From a virus: 39,835 nucleotides of DNA. The translations under genes and the position numbers were made by a program. The stretch spans positions 1 to 39,835 of IMG/VR virus record IMGVR_UViG_3300010158_000153. One strand, written 5' to 3'. How positions within the stretch are numbered: position 1 is the stretch's first letter; each line of letters begins with the position of its first letter. This document shows positions 7,428-36,492 of the stretch, one piece after another. Below the pieces are notes generated by a model, which saw nothing but the letters and a program-made list of their open reading frames with translations, was not told where the DNA came from and made no database searches.

Positions 7428-7435
7428 TATAAATA
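7428..7435 (+). promoter_or_regulatory. Perfect T4-like late promoter box (TATAAATA)
   Basis: TATAAATA exactly matches the T4 late consensus. It is followed by a 27-base spacer containing AAGGA (7452-7456) and the GroES ATG at 7463. It is the only clear promoter before the 12-kb plus-strand run to 19422, so it is the likely main late promoter of the oxygenase/halogenase genes. Confidence 0.75.
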
Positions 7436-8362: not shown

Positions 8363-8952
8363 TCAATTATCATTTTCCAACAGCCATATTATCGGAGTTT
8401 AACCCAATTTTAGCAAATGCCATGTTGCCAGTTGCTAGGAAGTATTTAGACAACCCTGAATTTGCCAGTAAGAAATGGGATTACAATACTACTTTTGGAT
8501 ATAACAATTCAGGTGGCATTGCCTACATGCCTGATATAGAACCTTTTAGAATTTTTATAGAAAAAACAGGAAAAAAATATCTTCAAGACTTGGGTTACAG
8601 TACACAAGGCCTAGACTTTTTTTCCTTTGTTTTTGTTAGTGAAATGTTTGACGGTGCGTTCCATGAAGAGCATACACACCCCGAAGCAATATTATCAGGA
8701 TTATTATATTTGCAAGCACCAGAAGGTTCGGCCTCTTTGATATTAACTGACCCAAGACCGTTTAGAGATTTTGTCCATCTTGACAAATTAAATGATCGAC
8801 CAACTAGCACTAATACTTCTGAAGTGATAATAACTCCAAAAAAAGGAATGTTTTTAATGTGGGAAGCATGGCTTCCGCACCTTGTTCCGAGAACACGTAA
8901 TAAAGATGACGGAAGAATTACTATGGTTTTTAATCTTTGTAGGAAAAGATAA
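8359..8952 (+). CDS. 2OG-Fe(II) oxygenase-like protein 2 (TIGR02466-type)
   Basis: The 197-residue sequence has the pattern of the putative 2OG-Fe(II) family TIGR02466: HEEHTHPEAILSGLLYLQAP at 102-121, DPRPF at 131-135, and KKGMFLMWEAWLPHLVPRT with distal H174, followed by R186 in GRITMVFN. The proximal pair is H105-x-H107 rather than the usual His-x-Asp/Glu, a feature of this subfamily as I remember it. Whether the carboxylate ligand comes from elsewhere or is missing is undecided. It is linked to its neighbours by ATGA (upstream) and TAATG (downstream). Confidence 0.75.
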   Translation: MINYHFPTAILSEFNPILANAMLPVARKYLDNPEFASKKWDYNTTFGYNNSGGIAYMPDIEPFRIFIEKTGKKYLQDLGYSTQGLDFFSFVFVSEMFDGAFHEEHTHPEAILSGLLYLQAPEGSASLILTDPRPFRDFVHLDKLNDRPTSTNTSEVIITPKKGMFLMWEAWLPHLVPRTRNKDDGRITMVFNLCRKR

Positions 8953-9653
8953 TGGCCAATTCTCATAAACTTGATAAAACATCTCATCCGCTTGCAGGTA
9001 CTGTAATTTGTAAAAACAATTTTTTTAATAATCCTAAAAAAGTTATAGAGTTGGCCAATCGACAAACATACGAAGGATCTGAACGATTTCCAGGAAAACG
9101 CACAATTAACCTGTTGGAATCTAAAGATCCTGCGACTAAAGAATTTGGAATATTCTTTGCTAAAAAAATTGCAAAAGAAGTATTCCCAGGTATTAAACGA
9201 TTTGTGATACATATTAGTTTTCATATTAATGATGTGTACGATGACGATCATGCAAACTCGGGGTGGATACATAACGACGATGTTACACTGGCAGGGCTTG
9301 TATATTTAAACGAAGACGAAGTTAGTTTTGACACCGGTACTAGCATTTTCCTTAAACAAGGTCAGCGTGATTTTAGTATCGAGGATTATGTTTCTAGAAA
9401 AGAATTTAATGTAAGTGGTATTGCTACAGATCAATATAAACAAGATTTAGATAATAATCATGCTAATTTTTCAGAGACAGTAAAGATAGGAAACTTGTTT
9501 AATAGGTTAATCGCATATGATTCAAATCTGTGGCATCGGCCTAATAATTTTAAAACCAAGTCTAGCCAGCCTAGAACCACGCTACTATTTTTTATTGACT
9601 TTTACGAATTTGAGTCAGCCGATGTCGGACCTCAAAGTAAATGGGTAGACTGA
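8952..9653 (+). CDS. 2OG-Fe(II) oxygenase-like protein 3 (DUF6445-like)
   Basis: A 233-residue protein whose core reads GWIHNDDVTLAGLVYLN at residues 104-120, placing iron ligands at H107 and D109. LIAYDSNLWHRPNNF gives the distal H195, and R208 in QPRTTLLFF is a candidate 2OG anchor. This layout resembles the DUF6445 branch of the oxygenase superfamily. An insert of about 60 residues between the first ligand strand and the distal His (about 125-180) carries lysine- and asparagine-rich sequence. Function is unknown. Translational coupling with gene 2 is through TAATG, and the next ATG is one base after the stop. Confidence 0.75.
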   Translation: MANSHKLDKTSHPLAGTVICKNNFFNNPKKVIELANRQTYEGSERFPGKRTINLLESKDPATKEFGIFFAKKIAKEVFPGIKRFVIHISFHINDVYDDDHANSGWIHNDDVTLAGLVYLNEDEVSFDTGTSIFLKQGQRDFSIEDYVSRKEFNVSGIATDQYKQDLDNNHANFSETVKIGNLFNRLIAYDSNLWHRPNNFKTKSSQPRTTLLFFIDFYEFESADVGPQSKWVD

Positions 9654-9654
9654 C

Positions 9655-10293
9655 ATGCCTGATGTTATAGAGATTCCGTTATTTCCCGTCCCTTTATTTA
9701 AATTAAAGGTAACAAATCATGCCAAGATTAAAAAATATTTGATGGATAATATCTATCCTCATTTTTTAAAGAATGGCGTTAACGACACAGCGGCAAATGT
9801 ATATACTGATTACATTCCAGGCGCTGTTAAAGCGCCATGGGCTATGTTGTCTAAATTCTACGACAAAGATATAACAGAATTTTTAAAAACTACAGGTATA
9901 GATTTTAATAAAGGGTGGAGTTACGACCTTACTTGCTGGTACGGCATGATGACTGACACAAACAATACACTAGTTCATGACCATACTGGTGGGCCCAGTA
10001 ATATACAATGGTCAGGAGTACACTATATTGAGTTAGATACATCCAACACTAACGGTACAATATTTTTAAATCCCAATGCACGAATGATGAAGGGCGTTGT
10101 TCCTACTAAAGATACTACAAAACTTCCTGATTTATATCGTCCATACGACAAGCAATGCACAGTAGAAGAAGGCGATCTAGTGTTATTTCCAAGTTGGTTA
10201 GATCATCGAACACCTGACTATTCGGGCGCATTGAGGGTTGTAGTTGCCATGAATATTATGTTAAAATTAGATGGCGAAATTATAGGATATTAA
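9655..10293 (+). CDS. 2OG-Fe(II) oxygenase-like protein 4 (TIGR02466-type)
   Basis: A 212-residue protein beginning with IEIPLFPVPLFKLKV, an N-terminal strand typical of TIGR02466-like phage oxygenases. The metal site region is LVHDHTGGP (H108-x-H110), then WSGVHYIELD. The distal part VEEGDLVLFPSWLDHRTP gives H184, followed by R194 in GALRVVVAMN. As in protein 2 the proximal motif is HxH, here HDH with an Asp between the two His. Substrate unknown. One base separates it from each neighbour, suggesting a single translated block. Confidence 0.76.
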   Translation: MPDVIEIPLFPVPLFKLKVTNHAKIKKYLMDNIYPHFLKNGVNDTAANVYTDYIPGAVKAPWAMLSKFYDKDITEFLKTTGIDFNKGWSYDLTCWYGMMTDTNNTLVHDHTGGPSNIQWSGVHYIELDTSNTNGTIFLNPNARMMKGVVPTKDTTKLPDLYRPYDKQCTVEEGDLVLFPSWLDHRTPDYSGALRVVVAMNIMLKLDGEIIGY

Positions 10294-10294: not shown

Positions 10295-10969
10295 ATGACA
10301 GCTATTAATTTTACAAATGTAGGATTTTTAATAGAGGATTTGAATCCCTTTGTGTTCCAACGTATTAAAAAAGAAGCACAAATACATAAAAAAGATTTTG
10401 AAGAGTCGGGTGGATTAGAGACTTCTAAAGATCTATTACGAGCTTACGGCAAACGAAAATTTGGGTATACCAAAGAATACACGATTACTCCAGAAACTAC
10501 AGATTTATTAATGAAGGAAGTATTTAAATTTGTTGATAAATTTGAAGAAACTTTTAATTATTTTAACAGGATGTTTAATTACACTGTTAACATTGATCAA
10601 ATTGCATCTAGACTAGAGCTTGAAAGAGTTTGGATGAATTTTCAACGTCCTGCTGAATTCTTGCCAATGCATAACCATTCCGGGATTTACAGTTTTGTGT
10701 TATGGGTACATGTACCTTTTAATATTGAAGACGAAAAAGACAAAGAGGCTAATCAGGACCTTGTAAAAAATTCAACTGGCAATTTTGAATTTATGTATAC
10801 AGATGCATTAGGAAAACTAACCAGTCATTTTTTGCCTGTCGATCGACGTTGGGAAGGAAAGATTGCTATTTTCCCAGCTGAATTGCAACACCATGTTTAT
10901 CCTTTTTATACGTCTGATGACGTTAGGATATCCTTAGCCGGTAACATAAGATTAGGAATGAAATCATGA
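10295..10969 (+). CDS. 2OG-Fe(II) oxygenase-like protein 5
   Basis: A 224-residue protein. Oxygenase core residues are H126-x-H128 in LPMHNHSGIYSFVLWVHVP, H199 or H200 in GKIAIFPAELQHHVYPF, and R211 in DDVRISLAGN. This RISLAGN ending with a hydrophobic strand is the usual 2OG-anchoring strand. The N-terminal 100 residues are helix-rich and charged. An insert of about 15 residues (EDEKDKEANQD, about 145-156) lies between strands. Substrate unknown. Its 3' end overlaps the next gene as ATGA. Confidence 0.75.
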   Translation: MTAINFTNVGFLIEDLNPFVFQRIKKEAQIHKKDFEESGGLETSKDLLRAYGKRKFGYTKEYTITPETTDLLMKEVFKFVDKFEETFNYFNRMFNYTVNIDQIASRLELERVWMNFQRPAEFLPMHNHSGIYSFVLWVHVPFNIEDEKDKEANQDLVKNSTGNFEFMYTDALGKLTSHFLPVDRRWEGKIAIFPAELQHHVYPFYTSDDVRISLAGNIRLGMKS

Positions 10970-11571
10970 ATTTTGAAAAATACGAGTTTAATGGATTTAT
11001 CGGAATTTTTGAAAACTATTTTAAAAATGCCTACTTAGATGAACTAGTTAGCTATTATGATTCAATGTCCAAACTATCGTTACATTACCGAGATAATATT
11101 CCTAAACATAGAAAAGACGACGAACAATTATTTTTGTTAAATCACAATGTAATTAATACTGTGAATCCAAAAAATATAAATCATTTCCTTGAAGTGTTGT
11201 GGGAGAAAATATTTCCAATTTATACAGAAAAATTTAGCATATTGCAAGACGTATCTTATAAAGTAGATCAAATTAAAATGAAGAAAATTGCACCTGGCGA
11301 AGGTTTTCATCAGTGGCATTACGAATCGTTATATGAAAATTCTAGAAGAAAAATAGTAATACAACTGTATATGAACAACATCGATGAAGCTGGAGAAACT
11401 GAATTTCTTTATCAGAATACTCGTGTAGTTCCTAAAAAAAATAAATTGTTAATATGGCCAGCAGACTGGACTCACACACATCGTGGAAACCCTCCAATCG
11501 GTGACACTGACAAGTATATTTTAACCACCTGGTTAATAGAAATAGACGATGAAAATAAAGGTAGACGATGA
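10966..11571 (+). CDS. Prolyl 4-hydroxylase-like 2OG-Fe(II) oxygenase 6
   Basis: A 201-residue protein of the P4H-like type common in marine phages. GEGFHQWHYES at 111-121 supplies H118 and E120 (H115 is an alternative). RRKIVIQLYMNN and AGETEFLYQ form the central strands. LLIWPADWTHTHRGNPP gives H170 or H172, and K183 in DKYILTTWL replaces Arg as the 2OG anchor, as in collagen-type prolyl hydroxylases. Carboxylate ligand E instead of D is tolerated in related phage P4Hs. A protein or peptide substrate is plausible but unproven. Linked by ATGA on both sides. Confidence 0.8.
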   Translation: MNFEKYEFNGFIGIFENYFKNAYLDELVSYYDSMSKLSLHYRDNIPKHRKDDEQLFLLNHNVINTVNPKNINHFLEVLWEKIFPIYTEKFSILQDVSYKVDQIKMKKIAPGEGFHQWHYESLYENSRRKIVIQLYMNNIDEAGETEFLYQNTRVVPKKNKLLIWPADWTHTHRGNPPIGDTDKYILTTWLIEIDDENKGRR

Positions 11572-12326
11572 AAATAAAATTTAATATTAACGACTCCCTT
11601 GCATTAGAGCATTGGCCGCCAATTCTTGCTAAAGACTTTTTGCCCGAATGGTATACTAAACTGCCAGAGGCTAAAGAGTCGTATGCGTTCGACGAGATTG
11701 TTACAAAAAATGTGCGGGCGTGTGTACCTGTTAGTGATTTGATGTCGTCGGGGTATATTATTCGTGCAACGTTTGAAGTTAGAGTTTCTGAAAAACTTGT
11801 AAATTTTGCGCCGGCAATGAAAATACAAACTGCACTTGAAGTAAAAGACGGTAGTTTTAGCGATACAAATGCTACCGTAGCAAAGAATTCAGATTTAGAA
11901 AAAATGTTTGGATTAAACCCAAACGGTCCTGTATCTATATTCGAAGAGCCCACTTGTCCTATGAAGTCTCAAGATAAAAAGAGAGGAAAATATTTCAAAT
12001 TTGAATCTCCGTGGTCTATTCAAACGCCACCCGGGTATAGTTGCTTAGTAATGCAACCATACTATTTTTACAATCAAGATGTACACATTTTGCCTGCTAT
12101 TATAGACACAGATAAGTTTGATAAAAAAATTCCAGTGATTGGTTTCTTAACAGGAAAAAGCGAAGAAGTACGATTTTTTTGTGGCGATCCATTACTACAT
12201 ATTATTCCATTTAAGCGAGACGATTGGGAAGCAGAATTTACTACTGACAAAATACTAGACAAATCAAAATTTTTCTTGTATAATGCTTATAAACGGATCT
12301 TCCATTCTCCTAAGAGTTTTAAATGA
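11568..12326 (+). CDS. Unknown-function family, paralogue A
   Basis: This 252-residue protein is the first of three tandem paralogues. Shared landmarks are LPEWYTKLP near residue 25, CVPVSDLMSSGYIIR near 51, SPWSIQTPPGYSCLV near 145, DTDKFD near 178, and CGDPLLHIIPFKRDDW near 205. I associate this pattern with a conserved phage family, possibly DUF6065, but cannot confirm the name. No His-x-Asp iron triad, P-loop or Rossmann motif is visible, so enzyme class is undetermined. Compared with paralogue B it carries about 20 extra residues around 95-125. ATGA overlaps join it to the P4H-like gene before and to paralogue B after. Confidence 0.75.
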   Translation: MKIKFNINDSLALEHWPPILAKDFLPEWYTKLPEAKESYAFDEIVTKNVRACVPVSDLMSSGYIIRATFEVRVSEKLVNFAPAMKIQTALEVKDGSFSDTNATVAKNSDLEKMFGLNPNGPVSIFEEPTCPMKSQDKKRGKYFKFESPWSIQTPPGYSCLVMQPYYFYNQDVHILPAIIDTDKFDKKIPVIGFLTGKSEEVRFFCGDPLLHIIPFKRDDWEAEFTTDKILDKSKFFLYNAYKRIFHSPKSFK

Positions 12327-13024
12327 ACAATAACATAACTTTTTCAACTAGCGATCTCGAAACATTAGAAATGTTTCCTGTTTTGCCTGCTTCAAAATTA
12401 ATACCCGATTGGTATAAAGATACTCCTGTAGAAGTAGGAGAGTATATGGATGTTACTGTGCCACACACACCAACTATTAAACGATGTGTTCCAGTATTAG
12501 ACTATATGACTACTGGATATATTATACGTGCATCTTACGAAATACAAGTTAAAAAAGAAGTAGACGAACATTTTTTTAATAGCTTTGAAGCTCGTTGCCG
12601 TCATGCTGACAAAGTAGTAGGAAAACATCCGTGGCAGCAGGCACAAGTTGCAGTCGACGGCCAAAAAAGTCACTACATGAAGATATATCAGCCTTGGCAT
12701 ATTAAGACGCCGCCGGGATATAGCTGTATGATATTCGACCCGTATTATCATTTTAGAAAAACATTTTCAATCTTTCCAGGCGTTGTCGATACAGACAAGC
12801 ATGACGAGCCTATTGGTATTGTTGCACTAGTTCAACAAAAAGAGTTTACTATTATGCCTGGAGATCCGTTAGTTGTAGTCTTTCCTTTTAAAAGAGATGA
12901 TTGGACTATGTCGTCGGAAGTACGTACAGACGAGTATAATAAATCTAGTTTTAAGTATCGCATGAGTACATACTGGTCTGGAATATATGCTAAATTACTA
13001 CATTCTAAAAAAACTTACAGATAA
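12323..13024 (+). CDS. Unknown-function family, paralogue B
   Basis: A 233-residue protein aligning end to end with paralogue A: IPDWYKDTP, CVPVLDYMTTGYIIR, QPWHIKTPPGYSCMI, VVDTDKHDEP and PGDPLVVVFPFKRDDW. The strictly shared PPGYSC, DTDK and PFKRDDW segments point to a conserved binding or catalytic site still under selection in both copies. No known catalytic motif was recognised. It lies in the middle of the oxygenase run. It starts on an ATGA overlap and ends two bases before paralogue C. Confidence 0.75.
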   Translation: MNNNITFSTSDLETLEMFPVLPASKLIPDWYKDTPVEVGEYMDVTVPHTPTIKRCVPVLDYMTTGYIIRASYEIQVKKEVDEHFFNSFEARCRHADKVVGKHPWQQAQVAVDGQKSHYMKIYQPWHIKTPPGYSCMIFDPYYHFRKTFSIFPGVVDTDKHDEPIGIVALVQQKEFTIMPGDPLVVVFPFKRDDWTMSSEVRTDEYNKSSFKYRMSTYWSGIYAKLLHSKKTYR

Positions 13025-13026: not shown

Positions 13027-13722
13027 ATGTTCACATTCTTTTTTAAAAAACCAAAAATTGTACTAGATTGTTTTACACATCATCCTGAAGTAGAAACGTT
13101 ATTCCCCCTAGTAAATGCCGAAGAACGATTGCCCGATTTCTGGAAAAAATTACCAACTACAGTTAAGCATAATGGTCCAAGTCGTGGTACCATGAAAACA
13201 TGCCCGGGTGTAACGGGATTATTTAGAACTGGATTTATAATTCAAAGTTGGCAAGACTTTTGGATCAGCACTGAAAATTCAATGTTAAAGTGGTTTCCTG
13301 AAGAAAGTGCCGAAGGACATAATCAAAAACAATGGGGCGATTACCTTAACGACTATCAACATCTGAAATTAAATAGCCCGTGGAAGATCAAAGAAAAAAC
13401 TGGTGTAAATTTTCTCTTTACTAATTGTTTTTGGCATGATGATAAATTTAAACCGTTCGTAGTAAACGGCATGGTTGACTACAAATATCAACATACTACC
13501 AGTGTTAACTTATTAATTCCGAAAAAAATGTTTCCGGCAGATTTAACTATTCCTGCGGGTAAGGAATTAGCTCACGTAATTCCGTTATCCGAATCCGATG
13601 TAATGATTAAGATGCATACGGTGGATTATAGTGAATACTTAAAACAAGTAGGTGAAATGTCCTTTACCCTTAATGGACAATACTACAAGCGTAGAAAAAT
13701 ACTGAAAGATAAAGGACTGTAA
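13027..13722 (+). CDS. Unknown-function family, divergent paralogue C
   Basis: The 231-residue product keeps the skeleton of paralogues A and B (LPDFWKKLP, then CPGVTGLFRTGFIIQ, SPWKIKEKTGVNFLF and PAGKELAHVIPL). It has lost the most conserved residues: PPGYSC becomes KTGVNF, DTDK becomes DYKY, and PFKRDDW becomes PLSESDV. It may be a non-catalytic partner or a copy with a new role. The N-terminus MFTFFFKKPK is short, hydrophobic, then basic. It is linked to the next oxygenase gene through TAATG. Homology to A and B is inferred from motif order and spacing. Confidence 0.7.
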   Translation: MFTFFFKKPKIVLDCFTHHPEVETLFPLVNAEERLPDFWKKLPTTVKHNGPSRGTMKTCPGVTGLFRTGFIIQSWQDFWISTENSMLKWFPEESAEGHNQKQWGDYLNDYQHLKLNSPWKIKEKTGVNFLFTNCFWHDDKFKPFVVNGMVDYKYQHTTSVNLLIPKKMFPADLTIPAGKELAHVIPLSESDVMIKMHTVDYSEYLKQVGEMSFTLNGQYYKRRKILKDKGL

Positions 13723-14387
13723 TGTCAGTTCGACCAATTTTTCCTGTTTTAATATATGAACATCAAGGTACTCAACAAGAAATATTCTTGGTGCAGGATG
13801 AAATTAGGAAGAAATTACCTTTAATAGAAGCTACAGATACTTTTTCAAATCCTCCAGGGTGGGACGATGGCGTTCAAACTAACATAAAATCTAGATATAA
13901 TACTATAGAAGATTTTGAGCTAGTAAATTTAAGAAAGTATATTGAAAAACATGTTAAGCAATATGTCGAACAATCAAAAGCATGGCATCCTGCACCAGTA
14001 TCTTTACAGCATAGCTGGATTAATAAAACATCAAAAGGTCAAAAACAAGACTGGCATTTTCATCAAGATTCTACGATATCTGGAACTTACTATTACCAGA
14101 CTACCGGTAATGACGGCGATTTTGGGCTGATGAATCCTGTACCTTGGATGCAACAAGAAATATTTCCTGTAGGGCACGGGGTGGCAAAATATGCAGAAAT
14201 TAAGCCGGCCGTGGGGAAAATTATATTATTCCCCGGGTGGTTGCAACATTGTGTATACGAAAATAAAACAGATAGTACCAGGATTTCAATATCATGGAAT
14301 CTTCATAGAAATCATTTTGTAGATACTATCAAGAACCAGATCATTGTTGACGGGTGGCATGCAAAAATAAATACTGAAAGGACATGA
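13722..14387 (+). CDS. 2OG-Fe(II) oxygenase-like protein 7 (TIGR02466-type)
   Basis: A 221-residue protein starting VRPIFPVLIYEHQG. Metal-site segment DWHFHQDSTISGTYYYQ gives H112, H114 and D116, so both HxH and HxD readings are possible, with H114 and D116 the better classic pair. PAVGKIILFPGWLQHCVYEN gives the distal H176, and R187 in STRISISWNLH is the 2OG anchor. All four functional positions are present, so an active enzyme is likely. It is separated from the first halogenase gene by nine bases containing GAAGGA, so the two are probably expressed together. Confidence 0.8.
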   Translation: MSVRPIFPVLIYEHQGTQQEIFLVQDEIRKKLPLIEATDTFSNPPGWDDGVQTNIKSRYNTIEDFELVNLRKYIEKHVKQYVEQSKAWHPAPVSLQHSWINKTSKGQKQDWHFHQDSTISGTYYYQTTGNDGDFGLMNPVPWMQQEIFPVGHGVAKYAEIKPAVGKIILFPGWLQHCVYENKTDSTRISISWNLHRNHFVDTIKNQIIVDGWHAKINTERT

Positions 14388-14396
14388 AGGACTTAA

Positions 14397-16016
14397 ATGA
14401 AAAAACCAATTAAACGAATTATTATTGTGGGCGGTGGAAGCTCTGGATGGATGAGCGCGGCAATGTTATCTAAGCAGTTTCCAAATATAGAAATTGCTCT
14501 AGTAGAAAGTCCAGATATTCCTATTATTGGAGTCGGTGAGTCTACCCTAGGAACTATTAATCAATACTTGGGCCTGCTAGGGCTTGAAGATAAAGATTGG
14601 ATGGAATATTGTAATGCTACATATAAGTTGGCTATCAAATTTACAGATTTTTACGAGCAAGGCAAGTCTTTTTACTATCCATTTGGTTTAAAAGATTTAC
14701 AAAATACCCAGCAAGGCGGAACTGATTGGTACGTGAAGAAAGTTATGAATCCAGAGTTGGATAACAATGACTTTTATGAAAGTTTTTACAGTTCAATGCC
14801 TATGATTTATAAATCAAAGATATTTGACAATGCAGACGGACAACTACCTGGATTCAGTTTTCGAAATGACACAGCTTACCACATGGATGCTACGTTATTT
14901 GGAGAATTTTTAAAAGAAAAGGTATGTATACCTAACGGCGTTGTACATATCAGTGCCAATGTCGAAGGCGTACTTCAAGAAGAAGATGGCTTTGTTGCTG
15001 GACTAAAACTAGATAACGGTGACATTATTGATGCAGACTTATACATCGATTGTTCGGGTTTTAAATCGTTATTGCTAGAACAAACTATGGGTGTAGAGTT
15101 TGAGTCTTATTCAAGTCATCTGCCTAATAATAAAGCATGGGTTACACATATTCCTTATGCACACAAAGAACGAGAGATGGAGAATGTTACAAACTGTACT
15201 GCTATCGGAAACGGATGGGTATGGAATATTCCCCTTTATAACCGGATCGGTAGTGGCTATGTGTTTTCTAACAAGTTTATCAGCGAAGAAGATGCATTAA
15301 AAGAATACATGGATCATCTTAATAGCGATAACATGACTCTAAAAAATCCAATTCGAAGCCAATTTTTAGAGTTTAGGCTGATAGATATTAAAAATGGAGT
15401 ACACCGTAAGGCTTGGGAAAAGAACGTTGTTGGTATTGGTTTAAGTTATGCGTTTGTTGAGCCATTAGAAAGTACTGGCTTGCTGAGTGTGCAAGAAATG
15501 TTATTAAAATTATGTGAAACGTTGCATAACAGACAAGTTAACAAAATACATGTTGACCACTTTAACTTTATCTGTAATAATATTATGGATGGTTTTAGAA
15601 ACTTTGTAACATATCATTATGTATTTTCGTCACGCCGTGATACAGAATATTGGAGATATATCACAGAGCAAATTGAGATGGATTCTTTAATGTTAGATCG
15701 TAAATTCTCACAAGTTCCGTCGGCAACTAGCGACCTAGCTGTTAAATTGTTACAAGTACATAATCTTCCAGCAGATCCTAGCATGGGGGGTATGCCCGAT
15801 ATATTGGTAGGTATGAACACATTGCCATGCTCTGTAACTCAGCTGGAGATTACAAAAATGATAATCAAAGCTCGACACGGACAAGTACCGGAATTCTACA
15901 CAAGTCAAACACAAGATTACTGGGATCAGAAAAAAGAATATATAGAATCTCTAGTAAACGATGCGCCATCGCACTATCAATATCTCAAAGATAACATTTA
16001 CAATGGCAAAGAGTAA
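14397..16016 (+). CDS. Flavin-dependent (tryptophan-type) halogenase 1
   Basis: A 539-residue halogenase of the PrnA/RebH type. FAD-binding GGGSSGW lies at residues 12-18 and GVGEST at 45-50. Catalytic Lys is K77 in ATYKLAIKF. The family signature WxWxIP is present as WVWNIP at 274-279, and EPLESTG at 355-361 supplies the conserved Glu-Ser pair. These enzymes use FADH2, oxygen and halide to form HOX, which is passed to the Lys and then to an electron-rich substrate. Marine phage halogenases are known, for example the characterised cyanophage enzyme VirX1, which favours iodination. No flavin reductase is encoded here, so host FADH2 would be needed. It is a close paralogue of halogenase 3, including the shared C-terminal PSHYQYLK. 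Confidence 0.9.
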   Translation: MKKPIKRIIIVGGGSSGWMSAAMLSKQFPNIEIALVESPDIPIIGVGESTLGTINQYLGLLGLEDKDWMEYCNATYKLAIKFTDFYEQGKSFYYPFGLKDLQNTQQGGTDWYVKKVMNPELDNNDFYESFYSSMPMIYKSKIFDNADGQLPGFSFRNDTAYHMDATLFGEFLKEKVCIPNGVVHISANVEGVLQEEDGFVAGLKLDNGDIIDADLYIDCSGFKSLLLEQTMGVEFESYSSHLPNNKAWVTHIPYAHKEREMENVTNCTAIGNGWVWNIPLYNRIGSGYVFSNKFISEEDALKEYMDHLNSDNMTLKNPIRSQFLEFRLIDIKNGVHRKAWEKNVVGIGLSYAFVEPLESTGLLSVQEMLLKLCETLHNRQVNKIHVDHFNFICNNIMDGFRNFVTYHYVFSSRRDTEYWRYITEQIEMDSLMLDRKFSQVPSATSDLAVKLLQVHNLPADPSMGGMPDILVGMNTLPCSVTQLEITKMIIKARHGQVPEFYTSQTQDYWDQKKEYIESLVNDAPSHYQYLKDNIYNGKE

Positions 16017-16603
16017 TGATAGTAAGTCGGTCTCCTCTTGATGATAATCGGAAAGGATTGCCAAGTGTAATTACAGTGCCATTTATTACCAGCGAAAAAT
16101 GTGACGAGATAGTCGAATCATGTAATAATAACAAATGGTCTGAAGGCACTGTTTTTAAATTTGGGCAATTCATAAAGGCTAAAGAGCATCGTAGTGTTCT
16201 TGTTGCCCGAGATGGATTAGATGATGAAGTGCTAGACAATATTTTTAAGACTATTTTTAAAATCAATAGTAAGTTATTTAGATTTCATTTAGATGGGTTT
16301 AACGAAAAAGATGCTCCGCTTGTTTTTAAATATTCAGCAGAGAGAGAAGATCATTACCAGTATCATACCGATTTGCTTATTGATAGCTTTATTAGAAAAT
16401 TATCATTTTCTATACAATTATCAGATCCTAACGATTATGAAGGCGGAGATTTAGAATTTAACCCAAGCGTTAAGGAGCCAAAAATTAGACATAAAGGTAA
16501 TATGACCATTTTTCCTTCTTATATGACTCATCGTGTAACTCCAGTAACTCGTGGAACTCGCTATGCAATAGTAGGTTGGATTTATGGTCCCGAATTTAAA
16601 TAA
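16016..16603 (+). CDS. 2OG-Fe(II) oxygenase 8 (PKHD/PiuC-like)
   Basis: The 195-residue protein carries the most canonical oxygenase site of the island: YQYHTDLL with H117 and D119, NMTIFPSYMTHRV with H172, and R182 in GTRYAIVGWIYG. The arrangement LSFSIQLSDPNDYEGGDLEF at 129-148 is typical of PKHD-type hydroxylases related to PiuC and P4H. The N-terminal part (VITVPFITSEKCDEIV) matches the usual first helix of this group. It is placed between halogenases 1 and 2, with a TAATG junction upstream and a 20-base overlap downstream. Confidence 0.87.
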   Translation: MIVSRSPLDDNRKGLPSVITVPFITSEKCDEIVESCNNNKWSEGTVFKFGQFIKAKEHRSVLVARDGLDDEVLDNIFKTIFKINSKLFRFHLDGFNEKDAPLVFKYSAEREDHYQYHTDLLIDSFIRKLSFSIQLSDPNDYEGGDLEFNPSVKEPKIRHKGNMTIFPSYMTHRVTPVTRGTRYAIVGWIYGPEFK

Positions 16604-17792
16604 AAAACGGTTAGGAGTTATAGGAGTCGGCACAGCGGGAATTGCATCTATTTCTCATATTATTCCGTGGCTTGGTAATGTATGGGATGTAGTTTCTATA
16701 TACGATCCTTCGACTCCTATATTAGGTATAGGTGAAAGCACTAATCCTAATTTTATTTCAACACTGGAAAACGGAACTGGATTTAATCTAACTACAGATT
16801 TAGATCAGATCGACGGCACTCTTAAATTTGGTACCAAATATATAAACTGGCGAGAGTACGACTGGGTTAATCCATTATTTGGAGCAGGTCACGCTTTACA
16901 TTTTAACAATTTTAAACTAAAAGAATTTGCTTTTGAAAGATTTAAAAAACTGTGGCCTGAAAAATTTAAAGTTTTAGAAGGCAAAGTAACTGATGTTACA
17001 AATGAATTCCAGTGTGTGCATGTAATAGTAGACAATACTGTTGAAAAATTTGACTATGTTATTGATTGCAGAGGATTTCCGTCTGATTATACCAGCTATA
17101 ACATAAGCGATTGCTCTCCGCTCAATCGGTGTTTTGTTTATAGTATGCCGCCGCATATGGCTGATCAATTTTTATGTACTGAACATATTGCAACAAAGCA
17201 CGGTTGGACTTTTGGTATTCCATTAACTACTAGACATACCTATGGTTACTTGTTTAATGATTCTATAAGCACTGAAGAACAAGTACTAGACGACATGTCT
17301 ACAATGTTTTTGACCAATGTAACTAAAGATGATTTAAAAGAATATAAATTTAAGTCATACTATACTAAAAAAGTATTAGATAAGCGTATATTAAAAAACG
17401 GTAACAGAGCTTTATTCTTTGAACCGTTAAGTGCAAGCAGTATTTTTTGCTATATTGAGATTGCCGAATTATTCTTACATCATTTAAACAAACAAGAAAA
17501 ATATAATGAAATGTTTGTAAACACTGAATTTACTAAACTAGCAAAATCTCTAGAAGATATGTTGTCTTTTTTGTATCACGGTGGTACTAACTTTGATACT
17601 GAATTTTGGAAATATGCCAAAGATAAAGCAAATGTGAGATTAAATAACAGCAAAGAATTTGCAAATACTATCACTGAATATAAACAAATGCACAAGAATG
17701 GAACATCACTGACTGGAAGATCATGGTTCTTTACTCCTCATAATTTAAGAGTCATTGACGAAAAAATGAATTACAACTATTTTAAAGAATAA
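16584..17792 (+). CDS. Divergent, probably altered flavin halogenase-like protein 2
   Basis: At 402 residues this is about 140 shorter than its two relatives. The FAD-binding fold is retained (GVIGVGTAG at 11-19, GIGEST at 48-53), and a Lys lies where the catalytic one is expected (K81 in GTLKFGTKYINW). The halogenase signatures are degraded: WxWxIP reads WTFGIP (208-213), and EPLESTG reads EPLSASS (280-286), so the conserved Glu is a Ser. DYVIDCRGF matches the FAD-contacting IDCSGF of the neighbours. It may be inactive, act on flavin differently, or have a scaffolding role. The reading frame is intact, so it is not simply a pseudogene. The start is fixed by the FAD motif at residue 11. Confidence 0.75.
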   Translation: MVPNLNKKRLGVIGVGTAGIASISHIIPWLGNVWDVVSIYDPSTPILGIGESTNPNFISTLENGTGFNLTTDLDQIDGTLKFGTKYINWREYDWVNPLFGAGHALHFNNFKLKEFAFERFKKLWPEKFKVLEGKVTDVTNEFQCVHVIVDNTVEKFDYVIDCRGFPSDYTSYNISDCSPLNRCFVYSMPPHMADQFLCTEHIATKHGWTFGIPLTTRHTYGYLFNDSISTEEQVLDDMSTMFLTNVTKDDLKEYKFKSYYTKKVLDKRILKNGNRALFFEPLSASSIFCYIEIAELFLHHLNKQEKYNEMFVNTEFTKLAKSLEDMLSFLYHGGTNFDTEFWKYAKDKANVRLNNSKEFANTITEYKQMHKNGTSLTGRSWFFTPHNLRVIDEKMNYNYFKE

Positions 17793-17796
17793 CAAT

Positions 17797-19422
17797 ATGA
17801 AAAAACCTATAGAAAAAATTGTCATTGTAGGGGGCGGAAGTGCCGGTTGGATGACTGCCGCACTACTATCTAGAAAGTTTCCTAACAAAAAGTTTGTCTT
17901 GGTCGAAAGTCCCGATGTGCCAACCGTAGGAGTAGGTGAATCTACTCTAGGTACAATAAATTTATTCTTACACTTTTTAGGGTTAGAAGATAAGGACTGG
18001 ATGGAATATTGTAATTGTACCTATAAACTAAGCATTCAGTTTACCGATTTTTATAAAGTAGGTGAAACATTTTACTATCCGTTTGGGACAAAAGATAGAA
18101 AAAATACTATCAGCGGCCTTACTGATTGGTATCATAAAAAAGTGTTGTATCCAGATACTCCATGGAATGATTTTTACGAATGTTCATATAGTACAATGCC
18201 CTTGATATATAACAATAAGATATGCGACAATGAAACAACTCCTAAATTAGAAGGCTACAGTTTTAAAAATGACACAGCATATCATATGGATGCACAGTTA
18301 TTTGGAAAATTCTTAAAAGAAAAATTTGCTATTCCTAACGGAGTTGAACATATTCAACAACATATAACGGAACTTAATAAAGATAGCGATGGCTATTTAG
18401 ATCATCTTGTTCTAAAAAATGGAGACACAGTCAAAGGTGACTTGTTTATCGATTGCACTGGTTTTAGAAGTTTATTACTAGAACAAACCATGGGAGTAGA
18501 GTTTGAAAGTTTTAAAAAATGGCTACCTAATGATCATGCATGGACTTGTCATGTTACTTACAATGATAAGGAATTAGAGATGAAAAATGTCACAAACTGT
18601 ACAGCCTATAACAACGGTTGGGTTTGGAATATTCCGTTATATCATCGTATCGGCAGTGGCTATGTGTTTAGCAGTGATTTTATCAGTGTAGAAGATGCTT
18701 TACAAGAATACAAAGCCTATCTTAATAGTGATAAAATGACATACTACGATCCCAATCGTGCTGATAAATTAGAATTTAGATTGGTCAAAATTAAGAACGG
18801 TACTCATAGAAAAGGATGGGAAAAAAATGTTGTAGCCGTTGGACTAAGCTATGCATTTATTGAGCCATTAGAAAGTACCGGATTACTAAGCGTTCAAGAA
18901 ATGTTAATTTTATTATACCAGACTTTGGAAAATGAACAAGTTAACAAAATGCATGTTGATTGGTACAATCAATTGGCCAACAAGGTCATGCAAGGATTTA
19001 AGCATTTTGTAACATATCATTATGTACTAAGCTCTCGCAGAGACACACCATACTGGCAACATGTTACTGAAAATATCGAAATGGATCGCAGGCTAATTGA
19101 CAAAGATTTATCAGATATGCGTACTATGACTTCGGAGTTTGGAGAAAAGTTATTAGAAGACCACGAGATGGGTAATAATTTAGGAGGCATCCCAGATATA
19201 TTTGTAGGTAATCACATACTACCAGTTAATCGACAGTCTGTAGAAAAAATCGGATATGATCAATTATATGTTATTGGTGGCGGATCACCAGAGCAAACAC
19301 TGCTTAGACCTAGCACACTTCAATACTGGAACATGAAGAAAAAGAAAAACGAATTAGCGGCGGAAAAATGCCCTAGTCATTATCAGTATTTAAAACATAG
19401 ATTCTTTAACGGAAAAGAATAA
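17797..19422 (+). CDS. Flavin-dependent (tryptophan-type) halogenase 3
   Basis: A 541-residue full-length halogenase: GGGSAGW at 12-18, GVGEST at 45-50, K77 in CTYKLSIQF, WVWNIP at 275-280, and EPLESTG at 356-362. It aligns with halogenase 1 along its whole length, so the two arose by duplication and have diverged strongly in DNA sequence. Differences gather in the substrate-side segments, for example around residues 95-125 and in the C-terminal 70 residues, which hints at different substrates. It is the last gene of the operon; its stop codon touches the terminator hairpin. Four bases separate it from halogenase 2. Confidence 0.9.
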   Translation: MKKPIEKIVIVGGGSAGWMTAALLSRKFPNKKFVLVESPDVPTVGVGESTLGTINLFLHFLGLEDKDWMEYCNCTYKLSIQFTDFYKVGETFYYPFGTKDRKNTISGLTDWYHKKVLYPDTPWNDFYECSYSTMPLIYNNKICDNETTPKLEGYSFKNDTAYHMDAQLFGKFLKEKFAIPNGVEHIQQHITELNKDSDGYLDHLVLKNGDTVKGDLFIDCTGFRSLLLEQTMGVEFESFKKWLPNDHAWTCHVTYNDKELEMKNVTNCTAYNNGWVWNIPLYHRIGSGYVFSSDFISVEDALQEYKAYLNSDKMTYYDPNRADKLEFRLVKIKNGTHRKGWEKNVVAVGLSYAFIEPLESTGLLSVQEMLILLYQTLENEQVNKMHVDWYNQLANKVMQGFKHFVTYHYVLSSRRDTPYWQHVTENIEMDRRLIDKDLSDMRTMTSEFGEKLLEDHEMGNNLGGIPDIFVGNHILPVNRQSVEKIGYDQLYVIGGGSPEQTLLRPSTLQYWNMKKKKNELAAEKCPSHYQYLKHRFFNGKE

Positions 19423-20121: not shown

Positions 20122-20129
20122 TATTTATG
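20122..20129 (-). promoter_or_regulatory. T4-like late promoter box for the 240-residue protein
   Basis: The minus strand reads CATAAATA followed by C, one mismatch from TATAAATA, 16 bases upstream of the ATG. It overlaps the last codons of the preceding fibre gene. The GGAGA ribosome site lies between the box and the start. Confidence 0.5.
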
Positions 20130-21111
20130 CGATTAAATGTCCGTTAAAGAAAGAATGAGAAGCATGGAATCTGTTGTTGTTGCTAGTCCAGTTACCCCAT
20201 ACTCGACAGTTATCGCCTGCGGCGAGATATAACTGTTGTTGCCAGTGGATCCCGTGTGGATAAGGACTTCCATTACCGTGGCTAAAAATACCATGCGGCA
20301 CACGACCTGACGGCAAGCCTGACACAGCACCATTCTTGCCCAAGCTCATGTGCATGTGTCCTGTGGTACTGGTCCAGCTAGTATCGTTATGTTGATAAGT
20401 TAACCATTGAAAGCAGTAATGTCCTGCTACCGGAGCAGTCCATACACCGTTGGTATAATCAAATCCACTTCCGTTACGTTGATATCCAGTCCACCCAAAG
20501 CCGCTGTTGATTGCTTGCCAGCCAGTTCCGCTACCTAATTGGTTATTATACAACCAGCCACCGGTTCCATGACTTTGAAACATGGGTGTACCTTGGGTTT
20601 GTGGTGAGCCTGCACCCATAACAAATCTGCCGCCTGCATCAAATCGAGCACGTTCTGTGCCAGCAGTGGTAATACGAACAGTATTATCATTGTTAAAAAA
20701 TATGCCAGTATTAGTGTTGCCGGCCAATGCTACTGCTGGTGTGCTTGCACTACCTTGTATAGTTTGTAGTGCGCCGGCCATGCTACTACCGTTTTTGTTT
20801 AACGGTGTAAATCCTAAATTTGCAACTGCGGCGCCACTAGCTAGTTTTGTGCTGTCTACTCCTGCTGAACTGCTAATATCTGCGTTGACAACGGTTCTGT
20901 ATGTAACAGTGTTTGCGCCAGCATTACTAATATCAAGTGTAGAGGCTAGCTGTGCGGTTCCAACAGAATTGTTAGCCAACGTAGTAGAGGTAACTGCGCC
21001 AGGCGCAAGGTTACCACTAGTTACGCTGTTGTTACCAAAATCGGTACTAACTAGAGTGTTTGGAACAAAACTATCTGTTGCGATACGTTTAAAACTTGAG
21101 TAGGTTGCCAT
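20125..21111 (-). CDS. C1q-like tail fibre paralogue 1
   Basis: A 328-residue fibre protein. The N-terminus MATYSSFKRIATDSFVPNT is nearly shared by the next two genes. The middle carries fibre-type repeats (NADISSSAGV, LGFTPLNKNGSSMAGAL, NTNTGIFF near 140) expected to form a trimeric beta-shaft. From about residue 215 a C1q/TNF-like head follows: GVWTAPVAGHYCFQW, YLAAGDNCRVWGN and the closing FFNGHLIA. Such heads bind ligands at fibre tips, so this is probably a receptor-binding or accessory fibre. It ends 19 bases before the downstream gene and starts nine bases after the previous paralogue. Confidence 0.8.
   Translation of the reverse strand: MATYSSFKRIATDSFVPNTLVSTDFGNNSVTSGNLAPGAVTSTTLANNSVGTAQLASTLDISNAGANTVTYRTVVNADISSSAGVDSTKLASGAAVANLGFTPLNKNGSSMAGALQTIQGSASTPAVALAGNTNTGIFFNNDNTVRITTAGTERARFDAGGRFVMGAGSPQTQGTPMFQSHGTGGWLYNNQLGSGTGWQAINSGFGWTGYQRNGSGFDYTNGVWTAPVAGHYCFQWLTYQHNDTSWTSTTGHMHMSLGKNGAVSGLPSGRVPHGIFSHGNGSPYPHGIHWQQQLYLAAGDNCRVWGNWTSNNNRFHASHSFFNGHLIA
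21088..21111 (-). repeat. Near-identical 24-bp gene starts in the three fibre paralogues
   Basis: The first 24 bases of the three fibre genes (21088-21111, 22069-22092, 23016-23039) all encode MATYSSFK and differ at only a few positions, while the downstream sequences diverge strongly. This points to tandem duplication with the start conserved, either for protein docking at the fibre base or through recombination between copies. Confidence 0.75.
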
Positions 21112-21120
21112 TTAGTTCTA

Positions 21121-22092
21121 TTATCCTATTAAGTATCCGCACCACAAACTATGATCGCCGTGCATCCGTCCGTTGTTTCCACCAAAATATGGTTGTGGTG
21201 ATGAAAAATCAGTTGCATTTAGATAAATTTCTATGCTAGCTGAAATACCCGGGGTGTAGTTATTGCTAAGTTGGTGGCCATATAACGTATGAGGCTGACG
21301 ACCAGTTGTCCTGTCAGTACTCGCTGATCCATTATAGCCGATGTTGTAGTGTATGTAACCAGTGCTGTTGTTAGCATCGTTGTAGTAATATGTTTGTGAG
21401 TAGAAGCTGTACCATCCTGCTACAGGAGCTGTAAATCTGCCTCCCGGAGCAAAGTTACTGCCACCTTTCTGTGCAGTAACTTGCCAAGTCCACCAACCGT
21501 TGGCCACTGTAAGTTCGTTCCAGTTACTTACACCTACGTTAAAACTATTTCTATACAACCACCCACCATTTCCAGAAGCAGTAAACGCCGGAATGTTTGG
21601 TTGCATTTGTGCAACGCCGCTGCCGTATTTGTTAAAGTTGCTGGCCACAGCACCTGCTGTTGTTATATTAACTTGGTTTGTAGTTGGAAAATAAATTCCA
21701 GTATTAGTATTGTTACTAGCGGCTACACCCGGAGCACTTACACTCGATGCGGGAATTATCAAATTGCCTGTTAAACTATCGCCTGCTTTGTTAACTGTGG
21801 TATAACCTATGTTTGTAGTACTAGCGCCAGAAGCAAGTTGACTGCCTGTAATCGAGCCGCTGGCAAAATCTCCGTTGACAAACGGACGATAGGTCATAGT
21901 TTTTCCACTAAAGTCTAAAGTAGTTGCCAGTTGCGTAGTTCCAACTGTAGCGGCAGCAATGTCTGCTGTTCTAACACTACCAGAGGCAAATGCGGCTGTA
22001 GGAACTCCACCAGTAGCAATATCAGCGTTGGTAATATTTTGGCTTATAATGGCCTGATTGTCAATTTGTTTAAAACTTGAATATGTTGCCAT
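21121..22092 (-). CDS. C1q-like tail fibre paralogue 2
   Basis: A 323-residue paralogue with the same plan: MATYSSFKQIDNQAI, shaft repeats (VNGDFASGSITGSQLASG, IGYTTVNKAGDSLTGNL, NTNTGIYF), then a C1q-like head from about residue 210 (GGRFTAPVAGWYSFYS, closing SLWCGYLIG). The head is Asn/Tyr/Trp-rich and clearly different in its loops from paralogues 1 and 3, as expected for a diversifying ligand-binding face. The ATG lies two bases after the preceding gene, with AGG in TAGGTTAATT as a weak ribosome site. Confidence 0.8.
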   Translation of the reverse strand: MATYSSFKQIDNQAIISQNITNADIATGGVPTAAFASGSVRTADIAAATVGTTQLATTLDFSGKTMTYRPFVNGDFASGSITGSQLASGASTTNIGYTTVNKAGDSLTGNLIIPASSVSAPGVAASNNTNTGIYFPTTNQVNITTAGAVASNFNKYGSGVAQMQPNIPAFTASGNGGWLYRNSFNVGVSNWNELTVANGWWTWQVTAQKGGSNFAPGGRFTAPVAGWYSFYSQTYYYNDANNSTGYIHYNIGYNGSASTDRTTGRQPHTLYGHQLSNNYTPGISASIEIYLNATDFSSPQPYFGGNNGRMHGDHSLWCGYLIG

Positions 22093-22094
22093 AA

Positions 22095-23039
22095 TTAACC
22101 TATTAGAAATCCACTAAATGTTTGATGCCCGGAATGTAGTCTACTACTGTTACCGTGGAAAATAGTTCCGCAACTCACATAGTCCGATGCGTTCATATCA
22201 ATTACCGCAGTATGAGAGTAGCCATCTTCATAGGCATTAACGTTACCATGTCTGGCCATAATATAAGGACAACGTCCGCCTGCGGTCCAACTTTTATTAC
22301 CGTTCTTTCTAAACCAAAAATGGAAATAATTAGGCACCGTGTTCGAGTCGTCTAAGATATAGTACCATGTGGTAAAATAATACAATCCCGCTACTGGCGC
22401 AGTAAATCTTCCAGGAGCACCACTAAAATTACTGCCGCCATATTGGTGTTCTGTGTTCCAATTCCATATCGATCCAACTTCCCATTCACCTGTGCTACCA
22501 AACTGCGGGGCATAATACCATCCGTTTTGGCCGCATACGGCAAATACAGGATGATTAGGTTTAGTAATATAACCATTGCTATCAATATTCATAGCCACAC
22601 TACCGCCTGCTACAATAGCTATGTTGTTGGTTGTGATATTGATACCTGATGCTGAATCACTAGCACTTTGAATACTAGGACTAGAGGTCGAGCCTGCTGG
22701 TATTGTTAGTTGCCCCGTTAGTGTATCGCCTGACCTATTAACAGGAGTAAATCCAATATTTGTAATTACTGCATTGCCGGCCAGTGTTGTTCCGCTAATA
22801 CCGGCACTACCACTAATGTCTGCATTGACAATGGGGCGATATGTAACAGTCTTTCCACTTAAATTAATAGAAGTAGCTAAATTTGCAGAGGTAACAACAC
22901 CACTCATTGCCGTACTTGGTACAGCATTATTAGCTATATTGGTTGCGGTAATTGTGTTAGGTGCAATATTGCCTGTTACAATAGTATTAGCAACCAGGCC
23001 GTCTGCCGCAATCTTCTTAAAACTTGAATATGTTGCCAT
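22095..23039 (-). CDS. C1q-like tail fibre paralogue 3
   Basis: A 314-residue paralogue: MATYSSFKKIAADGLVANT, shaft repeats (VNADISGSAGISGTTLAG, IGFTPVNRSGDTLTGQL), and a C1q-like head from about residue 200 (GRFTAPVAGLYYFTTWYY, closing TFSGFLIG). It is the first of the three tandem copies in transcription order and has the best ribosome site (AAGG six bases before the ATG). Shaft repeats are shared with the others at the protein level, while the head is diverged. Confidence 0.8.
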   Translation of the reverse strand: MATYSSFKKIAADGLVANTIVTGNIAPNTITATNIANNAVPSTAMSGVVTSANLATSINLSGKTVTYRPIVNADISGSAGISGTTLAGNAVITNIGFTPVNRSGDTLTGQLTIPAGSTSSPSIQSASDSASGINITTNNIAIVAGGSVAMNIDSNGYITKPNHPVFAVCGQNGWYYAPQFGSTGEWEVGSIWNWNTEHQYGGSNFSGAPGRFTAPVAGLYYFTTWYYILDDSNTVPNYFHFWFRKNGNKSWTAGGRCPYIMARHGNVNAYEDGYSHTAVIDMNASDYVSCGTIFHGNSSRLHSGHQTFSGFLIG

Positions 23040-23048
23040 CGTTTAACC

Positions 23049-23660
23049 TTAAATTGTAAATAGTCTCCAACCTCTAGTAGCATCATAATAAATCATATCA
23101 AATGCCGCTCCTTGGGTTGCTACCACTAATGTTGCATCTGTGGTGTTGCTCATAATAGGCTGACCGTTTCTTGCTATTGACAAATTGTTAGTGTTAAATG
23201 TGTTAGCGATATCAACTACACGAATCGTATCGCCCTGGCTTGGACTTCCTGGCAATGTAATTGTAAATGCGCCGCCTGAAGTATTAACCCATAACAACTG
23301 TTGCGCACTGGCAGTGTAGGTACCAGTAACAGTCACATTGACCATTTGGGCACCTACAGTACCAGTTACAATATAATTAACACCATCGCTAGTTAAAAAT
23401 ATCACACTGTTGTTAGCCATTGTATAGCTAGCAGAACTCGTATTTGTAAGGAAATTAATTGTACCGCTGGGAGTTGATAATACTGCGGCTCCACCGGTAG
23501 TATTCCAAAAACCCTGTGACTGGCCGGTAACTGAAGCAGGAGAAGCTAATGTAATACTTCCCGCCGCACCTGTGATAGTGGTAAATTGACCATTCTGAGG
23601 AGTTGTTGATCCGCCGGTAGTTGTTGATCCGGTGCCTAAAACTGTATTATATCGTCCCAT
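23049..23660 (-). CDS. Small virion structural (fibre-associated) protein
   Basis: A 203-residue Thr/Ser/Gly-rich protein without signal peptide or enzyme motif. The second half reads TSGGAFTITLPGSPSQGDTI, then RVVDIANTFNTNNLSIARNG, and ends FDMIYYDATRGWRLF. This beta-sandwich pattern recurs in cyanophage fibre and baseplate proteins, where it follows a short N-terminal connector (MGRYNTVLGTG). A structural role at the tail tip is inferred from sequence style and from position between giant fibre and C1q fibres. AAGAGA seven bases upstream supports the start. Confidence 0.7.
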   Translation of the reverse strand: MGRYNTVLGTGSTTTGGSTTPQNGQFTTITGAAGSITLASPASVTGQSQGFWNTTGGAAVLSTPSGTINFLTNTSSASYTMANNSVIFLTSDGVNYIVTGTVGAQMVNVTVTGTYTASAQQLLWVNTSGGAFTITLPGSPSQGDTIRVVDIANTFNTNNLSIARNGQPIMSNTTDATLVVATQGAAFDMIYYDATRGWRLFTI

Positions 23661-23669
23661 ATTAATCTC

Positions 23670-24041
23670 TTATGATGTTGATGTTTCAATACCGTAGATG
23701 TTTACGGTAACACCGCCGGTAGCTGTACCTGCGCCGCCGCTGCCGCCGGTACTACTTACCACAATGTTTTTACCAGCATCTATAACAATACCTGTACGTT
23801 CAAACACACCGTTAGAAACAATAGTTGTTTGATACTCAAATATTTCACTAGCTATTGGTAAACTTGTAGTACTTGCACCTATATACATTCTGATAGTTTG
23901 TGATGCACTTGCTGTGTTAGTAAATGATACGTTGTATACTCCGTAGTAACCAGTTGGTACTGTATATAACAACGTTCCGCTTCCTGCCGCAATATTACCC
24001 GCTGTTAGCTGGGCTGTTGCTTTTATTCCTGATCCTGCCAT
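23670..24041 (-). CDS. Small beta-rich virion protein
   Basis: A 123-residue protein with alternating hydrophobic beta-strands: QLTAGNIAAGSGTLLYTVP, YYGVYNVSFTNTASASQTI and GIVIDAGKNIVVSS, then a Gly-rich loop and a final strand. Proteins of this style, with a YTVPxGYYG turn, occur next to fibre genes in T4-like marine phages and probably decorate or connect fibres. No specific function can be given. TTGGAG eight bases upstream is a good ribosome site, and the gene starts 21 bases after the giant fibre gene. Confidence 0.7.
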   Translation of the reverse strand: MAGSGIKATAQLTAGNIAAGSGTLLYTVPTGYYGVYNVSFTNTASASQTIRMYIGASTTSLPIASEIFEYQTTIVSNGVFERTGIVIDAGKNIVVSSTGGSGGAGTATGGVTVNIYGIETSTS

Positions 24042-36484: not shown

Positions 36485-36492
36485 TATTTATA
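36485..36492 (-). promoter_or_regulatory. Perfect T4-like late promoter box for the giant fibre
   Basis: The minus strand reads TATAAATA followed by C, an exact match to the T4 late consensus, 20 bases upstream of the ATG and followed by AGAGGA (36474-36479). It lies in the 47-base gap after the preceding fibre gene and probably drives the giant fibre and the genes downstream of it. Confidence 0.75.

Follow-up and report, generated by a model that had tools for sequence, protein, structure and literature searches.

Halogenase genes have been recorded in cyanophages for many years, and one of their products, VirX1, is a well-studied biocatalyst. Members of the VirX1 family use reduced flavin adenine dinucleotide (FADH2), O2 and a halide to form a hypohalite, which is guided by a lysine to the ring that is halogenated (PMC8407142). 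The accessible parts of the literature cited here name no natural substrate for VirX1 or the other phage halogenases. We analyzed a viral DNA stretch of 39,835 bases, the complete, linear IMG/VR record IMGVR_UViG_3300010158_000153 (hereafter, the window), which most likely comes from a large T4-like phage with a jumbo-phage-like backbone. Three of its open reading frames (ORFs) matched the Pfam tryptophan halogenase family PF04820 far beyond chance, as well as phrog_2928, and were named HAL1, MID and HAL3, as seen in Table 1. An original prediction, made from the sequence alone, had described them as three halogenase-like genes in tandem. The three genes were correctly placed, but the tandem is not strict since HAL1 is separated from MID by a gene for a 195-aa 2-oxoglutarate (2OG)-Fe(II) oxygenase. 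That prediction also missed the operon of oxygenases in which the halogenases lie, and this operon is the more informative part of the locus. HAL1, MID and HAL3 may be contained in a late “oxidative tailoring” operon of the phage.

The halogenases lie in a fifteen-gene operon rich in oxygenases

The operon consists of 15 plus-strand genes (7463-19422) with intergenic gaps of -20 to +9 bases, and a group of related contigs has kept its gene order. It encodes GroES, a protein labeled “ferrochelatase”, four PF13759 proteins, two PF13640 proteins, one DUF6445 protein, three DUF6065/phrog_7084 proteins and the three PF04820 proteins. In the family alignment of the “ferrochelatase” protein, H98-x-D100, H148 and R150 were kept, and the protein gave a weak profile match to a Tet-like dioxygenase (E 0.17). 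In the DUF6445 alignment, H107, D109, H195 and R208 were invariant (n = 10 sequences). Since both of these families have an H-x-D...H pattern, eight 2OG-type proteins were counted in the operon, with the “ferrochelatase” protein as a putative member by motif and weak profile match only.

Most characterized flavin halogenases have natural products as their substrates. One possible explanation for this gene set, which we find rather unlikely, is that, while infecting a cell, the phage uses the cassette to produce or tailor a small halogenated molecule of secondary metabolism. This was proposed by Iyer et al. (2021) for S-SSM6a, where a cyanophage halogenase is accompanied by 2OG- and iron-dependent dioxygenase (2OGFeDO), cupin, carbamoyltransferase and HemK-like methylase genes (PMC7824862), and VirX1 is able to accept many small aromatics (PMC8407142). 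However, the 15 operon proteins include no recognized family of carbamoyltransferases, methyltransferases, ligases, carrier proteins or transporters, and the eight 2OG-type oxygenases among them, which come from differing subfamilies, are many for a single scaffold.

Two of the PF13759 proteins (9655-10293 and 10295-10969) carry H-x-H-x-G, with the glycine found in 18/18 and 19/19 relatives, respectively. An HxG motif is a feature of Fe halogenases. Fe/2OG halogenases were considered for the cassette, but this resemblance is not claimed since all four PF13759 groups share an H-x-H just before. The position after H-x-H varies among the four groups (D, E/N, G and G) and, therefore, the shared H-x-H is the likelier ligand pair. 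A solved relative was searched for with one PF13759 protein and none was found.

Table 1. Positions of the operon genes, the motif, the facing genes and the bacterial copies discussed in the text
Feature	Position	Strand	Evidence
T4-type late-promoter core TATAAATA, 27 bases before groES	7428..7435	+	exact match
GroES-like co-chaperonin, operon head	7463..7798	+	PF00166 8e-24
2OG-Fe(II) oxygenase-like, annotated “ferrochelatase” (phrog_2954)	7799..8362	+	phrog_2954 2e-51
2OG-FeII_Oxy_5 oxygenase	8359..8952	+	PF13759 1.7e-17; TIGR02466 above cut-off
DUF6445 protein, 2OG-oxygenase-like H-x-D...H...R pattern	8952..9653	+	PF20043 9.5e-08
2OG-FeII_Oxy_5 oxygenase	9655..10293	+	PF13759 1.6e-11
2OG-FeII_Oxy_5 oxygenase	10295..10969	+	PF13759 2.4e-09
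2OG-FeII_Oxy_3 oxygenase	10966..11571	+	PF13640 3.1e-09
DUF6065/phrog_7084 copy a	11568..12326	+	PF19541 2.4e-05 (below cut-off); phrog_7084 7.1e-33
DUF6065/phrog_7084 copy b, predicted dUTPase fold	12323..13024	+	phrog_7084 1.4e-43; model pLDDT 82.4
DUF6065/phrog_7084 copy c	13027..13722	+	phrog_7084 3.1e-20
2OG-FeII_Oxy_5 oxygenase	13722..14387	+	PF13759 7.3e-21
HAL1, VirX1-type flavin-dependent halogenase, 539 aa, Lys77, Glu358	14397..16016	+	PF04820 1.5e-108; VirX1 6qgm 2.4e-123; motifs
2OG-FeII_Oxy_3 oxygenase, 195 aa, between HAL1 and MID	16016..16603	+	PF13640 2.2e-13
MID, 402 aa, short protein of the flavin-halogenase fold, retaining Lys81, with Ser for the catalytic Glu	16584..17792	+	PF04820 3.9e-28; model pLDDT 92.9; fold Z 40.7; purifying selection
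HAL3, VirX1-type flavin-dependent halogenase, 541 aa	17797..19422	+	PF04820 8.7e-111; VirX1 6.6e-106; motifs
Convergent fiber-like genes, facing the operon (20125-21111, 21121-22092, 22095-23039, 23049-23660, 23670-24041)	20125..24041	-
Giant protein, 4133 aa, carbohydrate-binding modules	24063..36464	-	PF02839 (CBM_5_12), 6 stretches
TATAAATA, 20 bases before the giant gene	36485..36492	-	exact match
Lys-less bacterial halogenase copies	L170 6460, L172 6330, L175 6360, L181 3571, L206 5000, L207 1765

HAL1 and HAL3 look like complete halogenases

The original prediction that the first and third copies retain the halogenase motifs was borne out. HAL1 carries GGGSSG (GxGxxG), the catalytic Lys77, WVWNIP (WxWxIP) and EPLESTG with its catalytic glutamate, and HAL3 carries the same set. 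VirX1, which the prediction had cited, was the best Protein Data Bank (PDB) match of both proteins. Among viral homologues of the two classes with both sites readable (44 HAL1-class and 35 HAL3-class), the lysine was present in 79/79 and a glutamate or aspartate in 79/79; the comparison held 84 distinct rows, five of which, mostly cut-off sequences, were omitted. When 66 MID homologues were included, the lysine was present in 145/145. From these residues, HAL1 and HAL3 look catalytically competent, with complete active sites. They formed distinct orthologous lineages in the tree, each maintained in related phages, which agrees with the earlier idea of two diverged full copies that act on different substrates or at different positions. 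The pairwise omega of HAL3 was 0.055-0.087 in the three of six window pairs with computable synonymous divergence (dS), and the dS of HAL1 was saturated in all six pairs.

HAL1 and HAL3 contain STLGTI and YPFG, which resemble the STLGHF and YPFGP of the VirX1 row (group C) and differ from the ATFSTV/HPFER of the tryptophan flavin-dependent halogenases (FDHs) displayed with it, in rows other than those of PrnA and RebH (PMC8269204). Judged against the displayed Trp-FDHs, the free-tryptophan halogenase pattern (PrnA/RebH/PyrH) was thus not found. This bears on a recurrent idea in cyanophage papers, in which free tryptophan is halogenated as in pyrrolnitrin synthesis and the infected host gains antibiotic protection (PMC9964418; termed speculative in PMC2984593). 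We consider it highly improbable here since the pattern is that of VirX1 and no further pyrrolnitrin-pathway gene was recognized in the operon. A QhpG profile gave sub-threshold matches to HAL1 and HAL3, far under its curated cut-off, and no membership is claimed.

As had been predicted, no flavin reductase was recognized nearby: PF01613, PF00175 and PF03358 were not found in the window. Each was found in 0/14 records when the search covered the window fragment and 13 related records, five of them phage genomes of 147-196 kb. The control searches were positive in 13/14, 10/14 and 13/14 genomes, respectively. The lack of a recognized reductase is, therefore, probably normal for phage halogenases and no special feature of this locus. 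The simplest reading is that the host presumably supplies FADH2. The marine setting assumed in the prediction was not supported, as the gp15-like protein was nearest to those of the Sinorhizobium soil phage Phosso (33%) and PA5oct-like Pseudomonas jumbo phages. A search of paper text for the environment of the records gave no hit, and no habitat is claimed.

MID is an altered and constrained copy

The 402-residue middle copy had been predicted to lack the motifs, which proved true of only two of them. MID keeps GxGxxG (GVGTAG) and the lysine (in GTLKFGTKY), but WVWNIP is replaced by WTFGIP and EPLESTG by EPLSASS, so the position of the catalytic glutamate is a serine and the halide site is altered. 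Compared with a PrnA-type enzyme, MID therefore has the GxGxxG, the lysine and, in its predicted model, the overall fold, and lacks the glutamate and WxWxIP. The model has a halogenase fold over residues 4-402 (best match with 383 aligned residues and a root mean square deviation, rmsd, of 3.0; VirX1 Z 30.4). The structural matches listed were FDH-fold chains only, among them the lanthipeptide halogenase MibH, which does not in itself exclude other folds. The best PDB match by sequence was RebH, in two pieces (2.9e-18), and a search of BFVD gave two strong phage entries and many weaker giant-virus flavoproteins.

A profile search with MID gave 265 related viral loci, and the best 80 were retained. 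In the 66 distinct members with both sites readable, the lysine was present in 66/66 and phenylalanine took the place of the second tryptophan of WxWxIP in 66/66. At the glutamate position, 49 members had Glu, 15 had Ser and 2 had Gln. A tree of 64 members (at least 360 aa, built by a quick method with two outgroup rows) placed 14/14 Ser sequences on one side of a single branch with a support of 99. Judging from these sequences, the change from Glu to Ser defines a single old clade. The pairwise omega of MID was 0.09-0.24 in 6/6 pairs. By the same kind of evidence, MID is an altered, constrained enzyme, and the large phage family of which it is a member is under purifying selection.

A pseudogene was considered for MID and ruled out by the kept motifs, the purifying selection, the 66/66 lysines and the single Ser clade. 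A related explanation is that MID is a decaying remnant or merely a catalytically dead partner of HAL1 and HAL3. It has lost the glutamate, is shorter than the HALs and is missing from seven cassette loci (L013, L015, L016, L017, L019, L020 and L022, several of them near copies of each other). The evidence used against a pseudogene makes this very unlikely as well, and MID relatives also occur where no HAL was detected within 8 kb (L054, L056, L057 and L058, with L057 in a 223-kb contig), so MID is not an obligate partner of HAL. We think that MID is no dead copy and may perform a related flavin oxidation, which could be a hydroxylation or a halogenation that uses a different base. With the lysine kept and the glutamate changed to serine in one old clade, the MID family is a natural experiment on the halogenase mechanism. 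Between the window and L014, synonymous divergence was 0.73 for MID, 2.11 for HAL3 and 1.24 for the neighboring 2OG gene. The lower value suggests that MID was exchanged as a single gene, separately from its neighbors.

A putative late-promoter motif precedes the operon and the giant gene

The octamer TATAAATA, which we take to be the T4 late promoter core, had two exact matches in the window compared to 6.27 expected, one before groES and the other before the gene of a giant protein on the opposite strand. It occurred at the equivalent place before groES in 2/4 related contigs and before the giant gene in 2/4. In the window and all or part of these four contigs, 6/7 exact matches were directly before one of two genes, three at groES and three at the giant gene, and the seventh, in G004, was not followed by any ORF of 80 aa or more. 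When one mismatch was allowed, 6-11 of the 27-29 labeled genes per record (window, G001-G004) had a match and, therefore, only exact matches carry weight. The motif suggests that the operon is probably transcribed late.

The five genes facing the operon are fiber-like, and their order was kept in relatives. Four of the five had tail-fiber PHROG matches, of which that of 21121-22092 was weak (0.0046), and 22095-23039 matched only phrog_15750, a family of unknown function. G001 and G003 each have a gene of similar size to the giant gene in the equivalent position. The tryptophan (1.06%) and tyrosine (5.73%) content of the giant protein was uninformative either way.

The carbohydrate-binding modules of the giant neighbor protein raise the possibility that the target of the enzymes is a polymer of the host surface (a glycan, a lipid or an outer-membrane protein), whose modification could, for example, exclude superinfecting phages. 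Capsule decoration was also suggested by Iyer et al. (PMC7824862), and bacterial halogenases of the same family occur in arrays, with more than one gene in 27/78 cellular loci. We judge this unlikely since the late timing suggested by TATAAATA would leave little time for remodeling and no glycosyltransferases or export genes were recognized in the operon.

The operon may tailor phage-made late proteins

The reaction through hypohalous acid, lysine and glutamate is established for PrnA, RebH and VirX1. In HAL1 and HAL3, a host reductase would provide the reduced FAD that, with O2 and halide, would give hypohalous acid. This would pass to Lys77, and Glu358 would help direct halogenation onto an electron-rich aromatic ring. 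The enzymes of the late “oxidative tailoring” operon would in this way modify residues of phage-made late proteins, fibers first, a reading that we favor only tentatively. We infer such a substrate because the operon encodes tailoring enzymes and no recognized scaffold-building, ligating or carrier genes, has its late motif in common with the giant gene and is oriented toward the fiber genes. That the substrate may be bound to a polymer is suggested by the group-C pattern, the lack of recognized scaffold genes, the structural and fiber neighbors and the peptidyl-tryptophan precedent of QhpG, an enzyme with a halogenase fold (PMC7876137). Structural or fiber-labeled neighbors were found in the window, in Sf-CH11 and at the MID-like gene of S-ShM2.

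Several points weigh against tailoring of late proteins. Neither a substrate nor enzyme activity nor a modified virion protein has been seen so far. The region beside the structural genes is a common cargo site in T4-like phages. The MID-like genes of S-SSM5 and S-SSM7 are found among replication or photosynthesis genes instead of fibers, and the halogenase of HTVC008M lies between two terminase genes. In L081 and L121, the exact TATAAATA is at a groES that is on the strand opposite the adjoining oxygenases and, thus, the groES promoter need not drive the cassette. In favor of the operon reading, a 2OG-type gene was present within 5 kb in 51/60 viral HAL-class loci (of at least 4.5 kb), 36/81 MID loci and 1/78 cellular loci, but this contrast leans on 2OG-type profiles that were built from viral proteins. 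The loci were also fetched by similarity and many of the viral ones are close relatives, so the neighborhood counts are not independent samples. In the accessible parts of the virion proteomes of S-SM1, Syn9 and S-SCSM1, no search for peptides with halogenation or hydroxylation is described.

A more specific form of the late-protein reading, which we regard as doubtful, is halogenation and hydroxylation of the phage’s own virion. The late operon would decorate aromatic and other fiber side chains and so alter receptor binding or stability, with MID as a new halogenase-derived activity that has serine for glutamate. The conserved setting of 2OG-type oxygenases, a dUTPase-fold family, fiber genes and a late-promoter motif makes the question of the phage halogenase substrate testable, and halogenated and hydroxylated residues in the virions of cassette phages are the place to look.

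DUF6065 proteins and halogenase arrays

Three DUF6065/phrog_7084 proteins are in tandem within the oxygenase operon (11568-13722). In the predicted model of copy b, from which alone the fold result comes, 50/50 structural matches listed were dUTPases (best Z 12.9, rmsd 2.3, 120 aligned), which does not exclude other folds. A PG-V-V-D stretch resembles one dUTPase motif by eye, and no dUTPase membership is claimed.

In the related contigs, an additional halogenase-fold gene (GAGEGS...EPLEATS) was often seen between two PF13759 genes, as in L016 (2176-3714), L014 (1613-3139), L018 (888-2468) and others, and it formed a separate tree branch near the HTVC008M halogenase. There are four halogenase-fold genes in L014, L018 and others, and five in L088/L089. 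After six loci that repeated already counted contigs were dropped, one, two, three, four and five genes were found in 71, 24, 14, 6 and 2 viral loci, respectively (n = 117), and one to four in 53, 19, 7 and 1 cellular loci (n = 80). Arrays of halogenase genes thus occur outside phages as well. In the bacterial arrays of Hellea, Aestuariibacter, Maricaulis and Caulobacterales, a divergent copy without the catalytic lysine is found between canonical copies (Table 1). Copying of the cassette from bacterial chromosomes was considered and set aside because 2OG-type profiles matched near only 1/78 cellular loci and no donor cluster was seen, a result that is weak since the profiles are viral-built.

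Comparison with known systems

The nearest solved structure to HAL1 and HAL3 is that of VirX1 from cyanophage Syn10 (PDB 6QGM), which is ~43% identical to HAL1 over the alignment (41% by tblastn). In Syn10, a second halogenase adjoins VirX1, and at least seven genes downstream match the window cassette (2OG-type, DUF6445, DUF6065 and “ferro”). The window differs in its backbone and gene order and adds MID, two more DUF6065 copies and GroES. Syn9 and S-SSM7 have two prnA genes each (1593|1524 and 1104|1488, respectively, as the table columns read; PMC3037559), compared to three halogenases in the window and the larger arrays above. The jumbo phage S-SSM6a has a cluster with a halogenase and several 2OGFeDO and cupin genes, as here, but centered on carbamoyltransferases and a HemK-like methylase (Iyer et al. 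2021; PMC7824862), neither of which was recognized in the window operon. QhpG, a peptidyl-tryptophan dihydroxylase, shares the halogenase-like flavoprotein fold and acts on protein-bound tryptophan (PMC7876137) but, unlike the window halogenases, is a bacterial monooxygenase.

In an open-access literature search of titles and abstract openings, halogenase/2OG cassettes were not described as virion modifiers. Phage halogenases, their presence as two per genome, the adjacent pair in Syn10 and the halogenase/2OG cluster of S-SSM6a are already known. New here are the conserved arrangement of 15 genes on a backbone like that of jumbo phages, the arrays of several halogenase-fold genes, the MID family and the clade in it that changed Glu to Ser, the promoter pattern and the predicted dUTPase fold of a DUF6065 protein.

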